Part shown: positions 3,587 through 23,386 of the stretch, one piece after another
Numbering within the stretch: the first letter of the stretch is position 1
Layout: each line of letters opens with the position of its first letter
Assembly (NCBI GenBank): GCA_031290885.1
Contig: JAISLQ010000068.1
Coordinates: 1 to 41,381, forward strand
DNA length: 41,381 nt
DNA from: Acidaminococcales bacterium
GTDB taxonomy: Bacteria; Bacillota; Negativicutes; Acidaminococcales; JAISLQ01
Reading direction: 5' to 3'
Notes under the pieces: generated by a model
Told to the model about the DNA's origin: nothing
Database searches by the model: none
What the model saw: only the letters and a program-made list of their open reading frames with translations
Position numbers and translations under genes: made by a program

Positions 3587-4026
3587 AAATATCTTTATGG
3601 CTATGGCCGCGATCGCCGGCAGGAAAAGCAAGGTTTTTCATGGGCGAAAACACGTCCCGAGATTAAAAACAAATGCGGCAAATAAAGGCGGCCCTGTCCC
3701 TTTCAGGCGCGCTACTCTTAGACTATATGCCCGTCCGCGCCAATAGTCAATATTTTATTTTATGGCGCCCGGCATGGCGATTTGGCACGGGACTTGCCGG
3801 CGGCGGGCAACGGTTTGGTTTCCCTTTGCGTGAAGCCGCGCCGTTGAAGTCGAAGGGGGTTTTGCCGATGGCAATGTGATTTTCCTTTGCGCGAAGCCGC
3901 GTCCGCGCGTCAATTGTTTTTTTGCCGAAAGCGGCGGCGGTTTGTCTTTTCGCGGCAAAGCGCGATGGTTACGGCATTTTTTTAAGTTAAATCATGACCG
4001 AAGATCTGAGAGGAGGATCATTATCA
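3587..4026 (+). other. Gene-free stretch with a degenerate 62-bp tandem repeat
   Basis: I see no credible gene between the tRNA and the chemoreceptor. An imperfect direct repeat is visible: 3819-3880 and 3880-3941 share a TTTGCG/CGAAGCCGCG block and a TTTTGCCGA block about 61-62 bp apart. AT-rich DNA at 3746-3764 could hold a promoter for the chemoreceptor, but no well-spaced pair of boxes is present. Confidence 0.4.
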
Positions 4027-5766
4027 ATGGCATTTTTTACAAATTTAAAGACCCGCACAAAAATTCTTTCCCTTATATTTGTTTCGGTGCTCATTACCAT
4101 CCTGATTGGCGCGGCGAGCGGGTATCTTCTCAACGACAGCATCAAAGCCGCGGAATTCAAGGACGCTAACTTTGTCCGCCCGATTATTTATATAAACCAG
4201 GTGAAAGGCAATTTGTGGAGAAGATACGCCTTGGTTGTGGATGCCGCCGTGGAAACTGACGCCAACCGCGTCAGGCAGCTGGGCGCGGATACGGAACATG
4301 CCGCCAAAGAAAACAATGAGCTCATCGCCGCCTTTTTGAAGACCACATCCTCTGGCGCGGCGGAAGACGCGGCCAGGGCCAAAATGCAAAAAGAGTTAAC
4401 GGAATTTCGCGCGATCAACGAACGGGCGCGCGAACTGGCCAGGCAATCCAATGGCGATCCGGCCAAATTGCGGGAGTTCAACGAATATAAAGACAAAGTT
4501 TTGCTGAAAGCGTTTGACGAACTTAACACGGCTTTGATCGAACTGATCGACATACTGGTTAAAGCGAGCGACAACATGGACGAAAAGCAGGCTGAAGACG
4601 TGGCCACAATTTTGAAGATTATGGCCGGCGCAGTTTTCTTGTCCGTAATCATCCTGTTGGCCTTTGGCCTTTATATTGCCCGCATTATAACGACCGTGCT
4701 CAGCGAAGTTACGGCCGTCGCGCTGTCCATATCCAACAATGATTTGACCGTCCGCATCAATCCGGGGACCGTCGCGCGCGGCGACGAGTTCGGCGTGATG
4801 GGGAACGCTTTGCTCAAAATGGAGGAAACCCTCATAACGGCGGTCAAAGGCATCGGCAGCATAGCGGAAAACATCGCCGCCTCCAGCCAGGAGCTGCACG
4901 CCAACGCGGATCAGACGGCCAACGCTTCGGGCGAAGTCGCCAACGCGTCAACCACCATGCTGGAATCTACCGAGAAGGCCAGCCAAAGTTTGAACCAGGC
5001 CAAGTCGATGGTGGAAAATTCCGTGAAATCGTTGAAAAACATCGCCGACACTACCGGCAGCATCGCGTCCACCGCCGATGAAACATCCAGAACTTCGCGC
5101 GCCGGCAACGAAAGCGTTGAAACCGCCGTCAAGAGCATAAACTCCTTGGGCGAAGGCACGGCGAAAGTTACCGAAGCCGTAACTGAGCTGCAAGACAGTT
5201 CCAACAAAATAAGCGAAATAGTGGAGATGATCACAAGCATCGCCAGCCAGACCAACCTGTTGGCTTTGAACGCCGCCATTGAAGCCGCCCGCGCGGGCGA
5301 ACACGGCAGGGGTTTCGCCGTGGTCGCCGAAGAAGTGCGCAAGCTGGCCGAAGAGTCCGGCAAAGCCGCCCAGGAGATTGGCGGGCTTATCGCCAAAAAC
5401 ACCCAAAGCATCCAGCGTACCGTTGACCTGATGAACGAGCAGCGCAGCCTGGTCGGGCAGGGCGTGGACAAAGTAAACGGCGCGGGGCAGTCTTTCGTGC
5501 AAATCGCTGCCTTGATCGACTCGCTCGCCAAACAAATAACCGACGTTAAGTTGATCGTGCAGTCAACCGTGGAGGAAGGGGAACACACCGAAGCGTCCAC
5601 CCGCGACGTCCGGGCCGCAGTGGACATAATACTGAGCGAAGTTTCCAACATATCCGCCGCCGCGCAGGAACAGGCGGCCTCGACCGAGGAAATAGCCTCT
5701 TCCAGCCAAGTATTGGCGCAAATGGCGGAAGACCTGAGCGTTATTTCTTCTAAGTTCAAATACTGA
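4027..5766 (+). CDS. Methyl-accepting chemotaxis protein
   Basis: Transmembrane chemoreceptor of 579 residues that passes ligand signals to CheA/CheW. TM1 spans about residues 13-35. A helical extracytoplasmic sensor of about 165 residues follows, apparently of the four-helix-bundle type. TM2 is about 200-225, followed by a HAMP domain and a long signalling coiled coil. The hairpin tip carries the invariant pattern [20 protein letters not shown], then [15 protein letters not shown]. The start is ATG 4027, 6-8 nt after AGGAGG; the upstream in-frame ATG at 3994 has no ribosome site. No other chemotaxis gene adjoins it, but a CheX-domain protein lies at 22383. Confidence 0.95.
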
Positions 5767-13849: not shown

Positions 13850-16800
13850 TTGGTTTTTGTGAAAAAACTGTCAGTAACTATAATGGCGGGTTTGTGGTTT
13901 TTGCTTTCCGGCCTGCCCGCTTTTGCGGCTTTGCCGGATCGCCCGAACGATTATAAATCCATACCGGGAGTTACGCAAGACGAGATAGACGCAATCGAGG
14001 CAATTAAGGCAAAATACGGAACACTGACTTACGGCACCCTGCGCAGCAGCGAAGCGTTTGAAACCGAAGGCGCCGCTGACGGGTTTGCCATAAAGCTTGC
14101 CGCTATGCTTACGGATATTTTCGGCGTAAAATTTGAACATCGCTTTTATGATTGGAACAAATTGCTGCAAGACTTGGAGAACAACAAACTGGATTTCGCC
14201 GGCGAACTCAGCGCGAACCCAGAGCGGCGGCTGCGCTATTTCATGACCGGCGCGCTGTACGAGCGCACGATTAAAATATTCACCCTGCGCGGCGCGCCCG
14301 ACATTAGGGAAATAGCCAAAACCCGCCCAGTTCGCCTTCTTTTCCTCCACAGGACGATTACCGGCGAGCAACTGAAAAGGATTATTGATTTTCCCGTGGA
14401 GATTTCTTTCGCGGACGACTACCGAAAGGCCGCCGAAAGCCTGCTTGCCCACGCAGCCGACGCTTTTTTGGGAGACGATGCGTCCGCTTTTTATTTTGAG
14501 CCTTATGATCTTATCAAAGCGCAGACCTATTTCCCTCTTATCTATTCGCCCATTTCCCTGTCTACGGCCAATCCCGAATTAAAGCCCGTCATAGACGTAA
14601 TGCAAAAATACGCGCAAAACGGCGGCATAAACTATATCGAGCGCCTGTACGCGGAGTGCGCCCGCGCCTATATCCGCCATAGATTTTATGCGGAGCTGGA
14701 CGCCGGGGAAAAAGAATACTTGAAAAATCTGGCGGCGCAAGGCGGCGAAGTTAAAATCGTCGCGGAGTCGGACAATTATCCGGTTAGCTTTTACAACGAC
14801 ACGGAAAAAGAATTTCAGGGCGTGGCGATCGACGTCCTTAATGAGATAGGATCCATATCCGGCCTTAAATTTGTTCCGGTCAACAAGCCGGGCCTTTCCC
14901 TGCCCGAGATCACGGCTATCTTGATGAGCGGCCAGGCTTCTTTGGCCACGTCGCTGGTAAAACCGTCCGGGCAGTATAATTCCAACCTTTGGGGCGACGA
15001 GGCCTTTGCCGTGGATAAGTGCGCCTTGCTTGCTGCCGCCGGGCATCACGACATACAGATCAATCAAATACTTAACTACCGAGTCGGCCTGATCCGCGAC
15101 AGCGTACAAGCGGCCATATACAATGAATGGTTTTATGGCCGCACCAACGCCATTTATTACGATACCTCCGATCAGGCCTTTAACGCTTTGCGTTCGGGCG
15201 AAATAGATTTTTTTCTGGCTTCGCGCGACATGCTGCTCCAACAGGGCAATTACCGCGAAAAATTCGGCTTTAAGGCGAGCATTGTCTTTGAAAGCGACAT
15301 ATTCTACAAATTTGGTTTCAACTATGACGAAGGCAAGCTCAAGGCAATCGTCTGCAAAGCCCAGAAATTTGTTCCGGTCGGCAAAATAAACGACCAATGG
15401 ATAAGAAAAGTATTTGACTACCGCGATAAATTTTTCAACTATGTTACCCCCTACATTTTTGCCTTTATCGTTGTCTTGGCGACGTCTTTGGTCGGCATCT
15501 GCATACTGTACGCGCATAACCGCAAATTGAGCGGGAACTTGGCGCAGCTTGTCCGCGAACGCACGCATGAGCTTGAAGTGCAGACCTCGACTTTGTCAAC
15601 GATATTTTCCGCCATTCCCGACCTGATGTTTGTCAAAGACGCGCAAGGCCGCTACATCCAATGCAACAGCAGTTTCGCGCGTTATATGAGCCTAAGGCGC
15701 GAAGACATTATCGGCAGGGCCGACTATGAGCTTTTCGGCCCGGAACGCAAACAGCAGTACGACAAATATTTCGAAATGGACAAATTTATCATGGACACGC
15801 TGGAGACACGGTCAATCGAAGAAGAAATCTATTCCGAAAGCGCCAAAACGTCGCGGCTATTCGAGGTAATCAAAACGCCGTTCATACAAAACGGCGACGC
15901 GACAGGGGTCATGGGCATAGCGCGCGACATTACCGAGCGCAAGGCGATTGAGGCGGCCGCCAATGTCGCGTCCAAGGCAAAAAGCGATTTCCTTGCGCGC
16001 ATAAGCCATGAAATAAGGACGCCGCTGAACGCGATCATCGGCATGACCCATATCGCCCGCAATTCCATCGACGACAAAGGCAAGGCGCTCGCTTCCATCG
16101 ACAAAATAACTACCGCTTCCAGCCACCTGTTGGGCTTGATCAATGATGTGCTTGATATGTCCAAGATAGAATCGGGCAAATTTGAAATATCCCGGGAACC
16201 TTTTAAATTGGTCGGCGCGCTTTCGGAAGTATCCAGCATCATTTCGCAGCGCTGCAAGGAAAAGTCCGTCAATTTCCAAAACAACATCGCCTCCCTGCCG
16301 AACCTTGCCCTAGTCGGCGACAAACTGCGGCTTAACCAAGTGCTTATCAACATTCTCGGCAACGCGGTAAAATTCACCCCGGCGCTGGGCGAAGTCAAAC
16401 TGCAAGTGGAAACGCTGCAAGATGACGACCAACAAATCAGCTTGCGCTTCGTCCTCTCCGATAACGGCATCGGCATGACGCCGGAGCAAATGGAAAAACT
16501 CTTCATCGCCTTCGAGCAAACCGACAATTCGATTGCCGCCCGTTTCGGCGGCACCGGCTTGGGGCTGGCGATCAGCCAGAACCTTGTCAATCTCATGGGC
16601 GGCAATATCTGCGTAGAAAGCCGGTCGGGGGTCGGTTCCGTCTTCAGCTTTGAACTGACCTTCCCCAAAGCCGCCGCGGCGCTGTCTGAACCCGCGCCGG
16701 AAGAAGAAGGCGGCGAACTTGATTTTGTGGGCAGCCGGCTTTTGCTGGCCGAGGACGTCGAAATAAACAGGATAATCTTAAAAGAACTGCTCGCGGCCAC

Positions 16801-17113
16801 TCATATCGCCATTGAAGAGGCCAAGGACGGCAAGCAGGCGGTGGAAATGTTTGCCGCTTCAACAGTCGGCTATTACTCGCTTATTTTCATGGACATACAA
16901 ATGCCGGAAATGGACGGCTATGAAGCTACTGCGCATATCCGCCAACTGCCGCGCGAAGACGCCAAAACCGTCCCGATCGTCGCCATGACCGCCAACGCCT
17001 ACCAAGAAGACGTCAACAAGGCCATCGCCGCCGGCATGAACGGGCATCTTTCCAAACCGATTGACATCGGCCTGGTGCTGAAAACAATCACCGAAATACT
17101 CGGTCGGCCCTAA
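13850..17113 (+). CDS. BvgS/EvgS-type hybrid sensor histidine kinase
   Basis: Inner-membrane hybrid kinase of 1087 residues. A signal peptide (residues 5-27, ending PAFAA) is followed by two tandem periplasmic solute-binding-protein-3 domains (about 40-290 and 295-535), a TM helix (537-560), a PAS domain (about 585-690), HisKA with phospho-accepting His720 in ISHEIRTPLN, an ATPase domain with DNGIGM and GTGLGLA, and a receiver with Asp1015 in FMDIQMPEMDG and Lys1069. It should sense a small ligand such as an amino acid and phosphorylate its own receiver. No Hpt domain is visible and no DNA-binding partner adjoins. TTG 13850 follows GGTGA by 6 nt; GTG 13859 is an alternative start. Confidence 0.92.
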   Translation: MVFVKKLSVTIMAGLWFLLSGLPAFAALPDRPNDYKSIPGVTQDEIDAIEAIKAKYGTLTYGTLRSSEAFETEGAADGFAIKLAAMLTDIFGVKFEHRFYDWNKLLQDLENNKLDFAGELSANPERRLRYFMTGALYERTIKIFTLRGAPDIREIAKTRPVRLLFLHRTITGEQLKRIIDFPVEISFADDYRKAAESLLAHAADAFLGDDASAFYFEPYDLIKAQTYFPLIYSPISLSTANPELKPVIDVMQKYAQNGGINYIERLYAECARAYIRHRFYAELDAGEKEYLKNLAAQGGEVKIVAESDNYPVSFYNDTEKEFQGVAIDVLNEIGSISGLKFVPVNKPGLSLPEITAILMSGQASLATSLVKPSGQYNSNLWGDEAFAVDKCALLAAAGHHDIQINQILNYRVGLIRDSVQAAIYNEWFYGRTNAIYYDTSDQAFNALRSGEIDFFLASRDMLLQQGNYREKFGFKASIVFESDIFYKFGFNYDEGKLKAIVCKAQKFVPVGKINDQWIRKVFDYRDKFFNYVTPYIFAFIVVLATSLVGICILYAHNRKLSGNLAQLVRERTHELEVQTSTLSTIFSAIPDLMFVKDAQGRYIQCNSSFARYMSLRREDIIGRADYELFGPERKQQYDKYFEMDKFIMDTLETRSIEEEIYSESAKTSRLFEVIKTPFIQNGDATGVMGIARDITERKAIEAAANVASKAKSDFLARISHEIRTPLNAIIGMTHIARNSIDDKGKALASIDKITTASSHLLGLINDVLDMSKIESGKFEISREPFKLVGALSEVSSIISQRCKEKSVNFQNNIASLPNLALVGDKLRLNQVLINILGNAVKFTPALGEVKLQVETLQDDDQQISLRFVLSDNGIGMTPEQMEKLFIAFEQTDNSIAARFGGTGLGLAISQNLVNLMGGNICVESRSGVGSVFSFELTFPKAAAALSEPAPEEEGGELDFVGSRLLLAEDVEINRIILKELLAATHIAIEEAKDGKQAVEMFAASTVGYYSLIFMDIQMPEMDGYEATAHIRQLPREDAKTVPIVAMTANAYQEDVNKAIAAGMNGHLSKPIDIGLVLKTITEILGRP

Positions 17114-18084: not shown

Positions 18085-19419
18085 ATGAGCGTGAAAAACA
18101 ATGTTGTGGCAACATGTCCCCTCGGCACGGCGGACGCGCCGCCGGAGTTTGTCCGTATTGGCGGCAAGCGGTTTTACGCCGGACAGTCGGAAATTGGTTT
18201 GGACAGCCTGACCGATGCCGATGCCGTGGCGCTGGGACACATGACGAAACTGAAGAGGCTTTCTCTTTTCAGCAATAACATCCGCGACCTTGCGCCATTG
18301 TCGGGGCTGGTGAATCTGGAAGAGCTCAGCATCATGAGCGACGAGATCGGCGACCTTGCGCCGCTGTCGGGGCTGGTGAATTTGGAAAGGCTTGATATCA
18401 CCGGCGACAAAATCCGCGACCTTGCGCCGCTTTCGGGGCTGGTGAATCTAAAACGCCTTTTTATCATTGGGAGTGAAGTCGATGGGCTTGTGCCGCTGTC
18501 GGGGCTTACAAATTTGGAAAGCGTTTCTTTTCTTTTCGGCGACAAAATCCGCGACCTCGCGCCGCTTTCGGGACTGGTAAATCTAAAAGAGCTCAGTATC
18601 AAAGGCGGCAACAAAATCAGCGACCTCGCGCCCCTTTCGGGGCTATTGAATCTAAAAGAGCTCAGCGTCATGGGCGACGAGATCCGCGATCTCGCGCCGC
18701 TGGCCGGGCTATTGGATCTAAAAGAGCTTAGCATCGGCGGCAATAACATCGGCGACCTCGCGCCGCTCACAAGGCTGGCAAAGCTGGAAAGGCTCAAAAT
18801 CGGCGACAACAACATCAGCGACCTCGCGCCGCTCGCCGGGCTGGTGAATCTGACAGGGCTCAAGATCGCGGGAGGCAAAATCGGCGGCCTCGCGCCGCTC
18901 GCAAGGCTGGCAAAGCTGGAAAGCCTTGAAATAACGGACAATAACATCCGCGATCTCGCGCCGCTGTCGGGGCTATTGAATCTAAAAGAGCTAAGTATCA
19001 TAAGCGACGAAATCCGCGACCTCGCGCCGCTGGCCGGATTGGTGAATCTGGAAGGGCTCAAGATCGCGGGCGACGAAATCGACAGCCTCGCGCCGCTTTC
19101 GGGGCTGGTGAATTTGGGCAGGCTTGATATCACGGGCAACAAAATCCGCGATCTCGCGCCGCTGGCCGGACTGTCAAAGCTGGAAAGACTTGACGTCGGC
19201 GGCGACAAAATCGGCGACCTTGCGCCGCTGGCCAGACTGTCAAAGCTGGAAAGGCTTGATATCAGCGGCAACAAAATCAGCGATCTTGCGCCGCTTTCGG
19301 GGCTGGTGAATCTGAAATTGCTTGGCGTCAGATTTGGCTCAGGGCTGGCGAAGGGGCAAATCGACAAACTAAAAATGGCATTGCCGGACTGTATGGTGTT
19401 TGGGCAACCGACATGGTAG
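18085..19419 (+). CDS. Leucine-rich-repeat protein, 22-residue SDS22/internalin-like units
   Basis: Protein of 444 residues. A 60-residue N-terminal region (contains FVRIGGKRFYAG) is followed by about 15 full units plus partial end units of the form DLAPLSGLVNLERLDITGNKI, mostly 22 residues and twice 23. A short cap ends in QIDKLKMALPDCMVFG, as in other bacterial LRR proteins. No signal peptide, TM helix or wall anchor is present, so it is predicted cytosolic or exported by an unrecognised route. It probably binds protein partners. Units are nearly identical at DNA level (66-bp period), indicating recent duplication or gene conversion. GGGAG lies 7 nt before ATG 18085. No adjacent enzyme suggests its job. 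Confidence 0.88.
   Translation: MSVKNNVVATCPLGTADAPPEFVRIGGKRFYAGQSEIGLDSLTDADAVALGHMTKLKRLSLFSNNIRDLAPLSGLVNLEELSIMSDEIGDLAPLSGLVNLERLDITGDKIRDLAPLSGLVNLKRLFIIGSEVDGLVPLSGLTNLESVSFLFGDKIRDLAPLSGLVNLKELSIKGGNKISDLAPLSGLLNLKELSVMGDEIRDLAPLAGLLDLKELSIGGNNIGDLAPLTRLAKLERLKIGDNNISDLAPLAGLVNLTGLKIAGGKIGGLAPLARLAKLESLEITDNNIRDLAPLSGLLNLKELSIISDEIRDLAPLAGLVNLEGLKIAGDEIDSLAPLSGLVNLGRLDITGNKIRDLAPLAGLSKLERLDVGGDKIGDLAPLARLSKLERLDISGNKISDLAPLSGLVNLKLLGVRFGSGLAKGQIDKLKMALPDCMVFGQPTW
18280..19311 (+). repeat. Tandem 66-bp repeats in the LRR gene
   Basis: About 15 direct units of 66 or 69 bp share the block GACCTCGCGCCGCT followed by a GGGCTGGTGAAT-type block. Some units differ in only a few bases. Two units (around residues 135-180) have a one-codon insertion. 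Confidence 0.85.
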
Positions 19420-22382: not shown

Positions 22383-23237
22383 TTAAAAAGCGACCATCAA
22401 TGTCCCCAAGTCGCATTTTATGACCCTGCTGTTTTTAAACAGGGGATATTGGCCGCGGTATATTTTGGGCGTGGTAATGTCGCAGGCGCAGCCTGCTTTG
22501 GCAATTTTGGCGGCGGCGTTGCCGCTTATGATATTGGAAATTTCTTTAAGGGCCGAATCCATCATTTCGCCAAGTTCGGCCGGATCCATCATGGTTATAT
22601 GTTGTACGATGCAAAGGGCGGTTACCAGCGGAAAAACAAAATCCACCTCGCCCGGGCGATCGCCTACAAGTCCGATGCTCACGCTTATGTCGCCCGCCTG
22701 TCCGACAAGCGCCGGGGCGCAGGGCGCGGGTTGGACAGGCATATTCAGCATCTGGCCGAGCACTTCGCAGGCGCTGTCGGCAAAACAGGCGACAAACTGC
22801 TCGGGCTGCGCCATGTCCTGAGGGGCGGGGGGCGATGCCTGCGCCGCGGCGCCGGTGATTTTCCCGTCCTCCCCCACCACGTGGTAGATCAGCCAGCCGA
22901 TCAATGTCCCGGCAAATTGCTGCATGGTTTTGCGGTTGAAATTGCTTTCAATCAATTTTTTCTCGTGTTGCAGGACGGTAGAAACAAAATCCCTGTGCAA
23001 TATTTTATGCCCCGGCAGGCCTTCATAGCGCAAAGAAGCCTGCAATTCTTCCTCGTCGGCGAAATGCTTCACAACGTAATTTTTTAAAAACCCAACGGAG
23101 CGGGCGCAGGCTGCCCGGCTGTCCGGCCCTTCGCGGCTCATTGCCGCCGCCAAGTCGTCAGCCATCCGAAAAAGTTCTTTATGCTGGCTGTCAATTAGCT
23201 CGTTGCCTACGGCATAGGCGTCTTTCCACATTCCCAT
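22383..23237 (-). CDS. Bacteriohemerythrin-CheX fusion protein
   Basis: Cytosolic two-domain protein of 284 residues. Residues 1-126 form a bacteriohemerythrin with the full di-iron ligand set: His19, His58, Glu62, His77, His81, His119 and Asp124. A Pro/Ala-rich linker (about 128-145) leads to a CheX-type domain with the CheC/CheX phosphatase signature EISNIISGN (Glu and Asn as catalytic pair) near residue 237. CheX removes phosphate from CheY-P. The fusion suggests that O2 binding tunes flagellar-switch or twitching signalling; this is inference. AAGGGGG about 9 nt before the ATG supports the start. The next genes downstream, yczE-like and DUF4037, have no evident link. Confidence 0.88.
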   Translation of the reverse strand: MGMWKDAYAVGNELIDSQHKELFRMADDLAAAMSREGPDSRAACARSVGFLKNYVVKHFADEEELQASLRYEGLPGHKILHRDFVSTVLQHEKKLIESNFNRKTMQQFAGTLIGWLIYHVVGEDGKITGAAAQASPPAPQDMAQPEQFVACFADSACEVLGQMLNMPVQPAPCAPALVGQAGDISVSIGLVGDRPGEVDFVFPLVTALCIVQHITMMDPAELGEMMDSALKEISNIISGNAAAKIAKAGCACDITTPKIYRGQYPLFKNSRVIKCDLGTLMVAF

Positions 23238-23386
23238 TTGCCGGCCCCCTTTTTCATTAGGTAACCTATTGCTAAGTGCCTTTGGATGCTATGGCAAAAG
23301 ATTCTCCCTCTGGCATGGCGGCGTTATTTTTTAAGACAGAGGCGCGGAGAGCATGCCGCCGTGCAGCAAACAACTGTCAGAGGCCG

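Follow-up and report, generated by a model that had tools for sequence, protein, structure and literature searches.

A hemerythrin-CheX fusion gene

The window analyzed here is the whole stretch of 41,381 nucleotides from an Acidaminococcales bacterium, and it carries on the minus strand a gene that joins an N-terminal bacteriohemerythrin domain to a C-terminal CheX phosphatase domain. The open reading frame begins with ATG and is laid out as follows.

22383..23237 (-): hemerythrin-CheX fusion gene, 284 aa; the span includes the stop codon at 22383-22385
23245..23249 (-): likely Shine-Dalgarno sequence GGGGG (within AAGGGGG, 7 nt 5' of the ATG), assigned from the sequence
22842..23237 (-): bacteriohemerythrin domain, residues 1-132, from Pfam, NCBIfam, AlphaFold2 and Foldseek similarity to DcrH-Hr
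22806..22841 (-): linker, residues 133-144 (~12 residues), of low model confidence and fast-evolving
22386..22805 (-): CheX phosphatase domain, residues 145-284, from Pfam, AlphaFold2, Foldseek and PDB sequence matches

The AlphaFold2 model of the fusion was built from 48 natural sequences and has a mean pLDDT of 88; with its pTM of 0.66, the placement of the two domains relative to each other is only tentative. Another species of the genus has an orthologue that is 83% identical and has conserved neighbours. Comparison with this orthologue gives a dN/dS of 0.14 for either domain, as against 0.74 for the linker. Each domain is complete and evolves under purifying selection. The linker, called flexible in the initial annotation, has a pLDDT of about 64 over residues 131-140. 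A chance or artefactual fusion is ruled out by the orthologue, the purifying selection and the existence of other fusions. No Pfam match to an MCP or HAMP domain was found in the protein, which is therefore not an aerotaxis receptor of the DcrH kind.

The hemerythrin domain

The N-terminal half matches the Pfam Hemerythrin family over residues 11-127 (E 2.7e-12, above the gathering cut-off) and the NCBIfam hemerythrin domain (E 5e-29), with bact_hemeryth also above its cut-off. The AlphaFold2 model places it in a four-helix bundle (helices 13-34, 38-68, 74-97 and 102-132) and Foldseek aligns this half with DcrH-Hr, its nearest solved relative, at a target TM of 0.80. Seven di-iron ligands had been read from the sequence in the initial annotation, and all seven are exactly as it claimed.

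23181..23183 (-): iron ligand His19, invariant in 99/99 relatives
23064..23066 (-): iron ligand His58, invariant in 99/99 relatives
23052..23054 (-): bridging ligand Glu62, invariant in 99/99 relatives
23007..23009 (-): iron ligand His77, invariant in 99/99 relatives
22995..22997 (-): iron ligand His81, invariant in 99/99 relatives
22881..22883 (-): iron ligand His119, invariant in 99/99 relatives
22866..22868 (-): bridging ligand Asp124, invariant in 99/99 relatives

This set of five histidines, one glutamate and one aspartate is thus complete both in the window protein and in every one of the 99 related hemerythrins that belong to the gene module described below. Trp115 is likewise invariant in all 99, as is Gln66 (codon 23040-23042), which lies four residues past Glu62 at a position occupied by Met in most ordinary hemerythrins and could modulate the iron centre. 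O2 binding at the di-iron site is established for hemerythrins of this type (PMC9388753), and by analogy with this family the same would be expected of the hemerythrin half of the fusion.

The CheX domain

The C-terminal half matches Pfam CheX over residues 184-263 (E 2.3e-11) and Pfam CheC over residues 225-260, both above the gathering cut-off. Foldseek comparison of the AlphaFold2 model with solved CheX structures gives a target TM of about 0.71-0.77. The EISNIISGN signature that had marked this half as CheX contains the expected active-site pair.

22533..22544 (-): catalytic E232-x-x-N235 of CheX; E and N invariant in 96/96 and aligned with solved CheX

Glu232 and Asn235 align with the E-x-x-N motif in CheX proteins of solved structure, among them the Borrelia CheX co-crystallised with CheY, and Ser228, Glu232, Asn235 and Gly239 are invariant across 96 related CheX sequences. 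CheX proteins hydrolyse CheY-P by inserting an acidic residue and an asparagine into the CheY active site (PMC3035606), an activity that the CheX half of the fusion probably shares as a member of the same family.

A conserved gene pair in Bacillota

The initial annotation had only the window to draw on; the gene neighbourhoods extend it and show the fusion to belong to a widespread module of two genes. A search of 398 Bacillota genomes with the fusion returned nearest hemerythrin relatives that are mostly stand-alone genes, and at all 18 of the unfused loci that were read (L087-L104) a CheX gene lies directly downstream. A scan for the hemerythrin subfamily across ~85,000 genomes gave at least 530 relatives. 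Among the best 80 of these, 76 are tied to a distinct CheX subfamily, 11 as fusions and 65 with the CheX gene directly after. The order is fixed in the module pairs, with one CheX per hemerythrin, and the two genes overlap in 56 of the 65 pairs and lie within 9 bp in 64, an arrangement that suggests translational coupling. Cultured species with the module include Kineothrix alysoides, Tissierella praeacuta, Desulforamulus putei and Anaerotruncus colihominis, so that the idea developed below is directly testable. A close relative of Clostridium thermocellum also has the pair (L172).

A profile of the module CheX separates members (at least 150.9 bits) from ordinary CheX (at most 120.0 bits) in the 398 Bacillota genomes and finds 43 copies in 42 of them. 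By coordinate comparison of the fusion search with the CheX profile search, 39 of the 43 copies are at a hemerythrin. The others are in G748, G494 and G552, together with one of the two copies in G710. G748, G494 and G552 each encode a hemerythrin-bearing MCP elsewhere in the genome and have the CheX without an adjoining hemerythrin (L196, L198 and L200), which implies that CheX can act without one. In G494 the CheX gene is convergent with a protoglobin-MCP gene (L198:415-1554).

The pair is not placed in a che/fla operon, and no recurrent third gene lies beside it beyond close relatives. Near-perfect FliA/sigma-D-type sites (11-12 of 12 positions) were present in only four of 100 upstream regions (L122, L131, L142 and L151, loci that may be related), with 0.2 expected in shuffles, and none was present in the window. 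Such a promoter was consequently dropped as general proof of motility control. The linkage and fusion of hemerythrin and CheX amount to a functional tie, and we infer beyond this that O2 controls catalysis.

Chemotaxis setting

The genome that contains the window has a full che/fla complement and encodes proteins named from their sequences and from searches as CheA, CheW, CheB, CheC, CheD, FliM, FliY, CheY and CheV, as well as FliG. Seven MCPs are present, one of them inside the window (3994-5766, plus strand, with a 4HB sensor module). The window also encodes a 1087-aa hybrid histidine kinase with SBP_bac_3, PAS and receiver domains (13850-17113, plus strand). Of three hemerythrin genes in the genome, the fusion is the only one with a signalling domain. 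No second CheX was found in this assembly, which is 95% complete; the sister species G001 additionally has an ordinary stand-alone CheX (L046:2511-3092, plus strand).

Among the 398 Bacillota genomes, CheA is encoded by 41 of the 42 that carry the module versus 288 of the 356 others (p = 0.002, with species that are not independent of one another). G557 is the one carrier without a CheA match, and it is among the genomes checked for FliG, which was found in 20 of 21 including this one.

Phylogeny and origin of the fusions

In separate CheX and hemerythrin trees the module members form one clade each, with SH-aLRT values of 92 and 93 from short alignments, and these clades stand apart from ordinary CheX, receiver-fused CheX and ordinary hemerythrins. 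Hemerythrin and CheX distances are correlated over 92 loci (r = 0.89), which matches the expectation for a unit inherited together. The joined two-domain tree requires at least two fusion events. In this tree the window protein falls within a fully supported, nine-member fusion clade with Clostridia MAGs assigned to Gracilibacteraceae, Family XIII and a Peptococcaceae. These MAGs come from the sets Gx, Im, Nc and Ncb, among which Gx485 and Ncb351 are documented to derive from termite guts (Glyptotermes and Neotermes, PMC11707648). An unfused pair is present in six other Negativicutes genomes and branches away from the window's version in the joined tree, so that an earlier view of the module as absent from this class outside the window's genus was wrong. 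Related fusion loci have none of the flanking window genes in common, and the simplest reading would be horizontal transfer of a single gene among gut bacteria. An origin of the fusion from the receiver-CheX of the class by domain swap was considered on the basis of length and architecture, but the CheX tree rules it out. In Negativicutes, genes for receiver-CheX and stand-alone CheX commonly adjoin (L060, L063, L076, L083 and other loci of the class).

Proposed function and alternative explanations

Textbook chemotaxis has signals entering at the receptors and CheA and assigns no sensory role to the phosphatase step. We propose, with a probability of a little under 0.6, that the fusion is a soluble O2- or redox-responsive CheY-P phosphatase and that it represents the single-chain version of a dedicated hemerythrin-CheX gene pair found in motile anaerobic Bacillota. 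O2 or a redox change at the iron centre of the N-terminal helices would make the neighbouring CheX more or less active or available; that the state of the iron centre acts on the joined CheX in this way is what we infer. The CheX domain would insert Glu232 and Asn235 into the receiver active site and remove the phosphate from CheY-P. Cytosolic O2 would in this manner set the lifetime of CheY-P and through it the swimming bias, in parallel with the receptors and CheA.

In Bacillus-type motors CheY-P favours smooth swimming. If the motor is of this type and O2 is a repellent, O2 would stimulate the phosphatase and runs would become shorter; this direction is a guess drawn from such motors and from the anaerobic lifestyle, and we would put it at odds of roughly three to two. 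Methylation-based adaptation operates upstream, and an input at the phosphatase would therefore give a sustained, non-adapting change in bias. A non-adapting response makes kinesis or gain control likelier than the gradient tracking of classical aerotaxis. The initial annotation had proposed a soluble aerotaxis device acting at signal decay. Its core, an O2-binding domain on a CheY-P phosphatase and not on a receptor, has strong indirect support from the conserved overlapping pair across Bacillota, the two or more fusions, the invariant residues and the co-occurrence with CheA and FliG, but the term aerotaxis is too specific given the kinesis or gain control that is expected.

A role in carrying or removing O2 has been ascribed to many single-domain hemerythrins, and the hemerythrin could accordingly be a scavenger or carrier that guards the cell or the flagellar apparatus, tied to CheX by shared conditions with no allosteric coupling. 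One clostridial hemerythrin, Cthe_1509 of Clostridium thermocellum, is reported at a 70-fold higher level in planktonic cells, a difference that was interpreted as scavenging (PMC5327387). Set against this, one CheX per hemerythrin, in fixed order, with overlapping genes and repeated fusion, would be unusual for mere co-expression, and a di-iron site at the level of a signalling protein is a poor O2 sink. We regard this explanation as unlikely, while giving it some weight.

The sensor may instead respond to a cue other than O2, such as NO, peroxide, iron supply or redox state, and gate CheX accordingly. Bhr-HD-GYP and other proteins have been described as redox sensors (PMC9388753), and the invariant Gln66 in place of the usual Met may alter the chemistry of the site. 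Retention of every ligand of the O2-binding type, with DcrH-Hr as the nearest solved relative, makes such a cue less probable still. The substrate of CheX could also be a receiver other than CheY, with the module serving another two-component pathway: it lies outside che/fla operons, the window itself contains a hybrid kinase with a receiver, and many genomes have CheX paralogues. The presence of CheA in 41 of 42 carriers and of FliG in nearly all genomes checked speaks for CheY, as does the failure to see another CheX in the window's genome, and we consider a different receiver distinctly improbable. Four-helix bundles are common interaction parts, and the hemerythrin might be a mere scaffold or dimerisation part with its iron centre unused, but scaffolding alone would not need the metal ligands that all 99 sequences keep, which leaves this very improbable.

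In its broader form, the O2- or redox-responsive reading would make hemerythrin-gated CheY-P phosphatases a widespread, receptor-independent input to chemotaxis in which cytosolic O2 directly sets the lifetime of CheY-P. This input would take the form of coupled genes in roughly one in ten of the Bacillota genomes sampled and of fused single chains in several lineages from the gut. We hold this generalization to be only slightly better than an even bet. If it is true, environmental signals would gain a second entry point through the conserved O2-binding partner of a CheY-P phosphatase, and this could explain O2 reactions of anaerobic clostridia and gut bacteria. Hemerythrin-CheX may also offer biochemistry a natural oxygen-controlled phosphatase.

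Relation to known systems

DcrH of Desulfovibrio vulgaris, an MCP with a C-terminal hemerythrin domain, is linked to chemotaxis and has the same type of hemerythrin as well as the nearest solved structure. It is, however, a membrane receptor that acts on CheA, whereas the hemerythrin of the fusion sits on a soluble phosphatase without an MCP domain. The CheX proteins of Thermotoga maritima and Borrelia burgdorferi, which belong to the CheC/CheX/FliY phosphatases, have the fold and E-x-x-N motif in common with the fusion but are single-domain and sensorless, and the CheX of the fusion falls in a separate, hemerythrin-linked clade. The receiver-CheX proteins of Negativicutes are likewise two-domain proteins of similar length with CheX at the C-terminus; their partner is a receiver domain and their CheX is only distantly related. 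The CheC-CheD pair (complex 2f9z) likewise couples a CheY-P phosphatase to a protein that it works with, but CheD connects to receptors and adaptation, whereas hemerythrin would supply an environmental signal. Soluble hemerythrin sensors on signalling enzymes have the same kind of join, with c-di-GMP as the output in place of CheY-P (PMC9388753).

A survey of hemerythrin architectures names MCP and GGDEF as the principal partners (PMC4919030), and a review from 2022 cites MCPs, c-di-GMP enzymes and P-type ATPases (PMC9388753). A 2026 review of aerotaxis has hemerythrin in receptors only and mentions neither CheX nor CheC (PMC13401364). In the open-licence literature we found no description of a hemerythrin-CheX protein or operon, and the one paper found there that names both describes no link between them; the architecture may be listed, uncommented, in domain databases. 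Each part comes from a known family; what appears to be new is their combination, together with the conserved linkage.

Other observations

Several other proteins, of two or three domains, join a hemerythrin to a domain of unknown type. These are a 516-aa hemerythrin-unknown-receiver protein (L203:1551-3098, plus strand), a 310-aa open reading frame (L209:628-1557, minus strand) and a 296-aa protein with an E-x-x-D motif (L146:3980-4867, plus strand). Their C-termini were considered as CheX and rejected: Pfam showed no CheX in L146 or L203, and the profile comparison gave nothing significant for L146 or L209. The window also encodes a 444-aa protein of near-identical leucine-rich repeats (18085-19419, plus strand).
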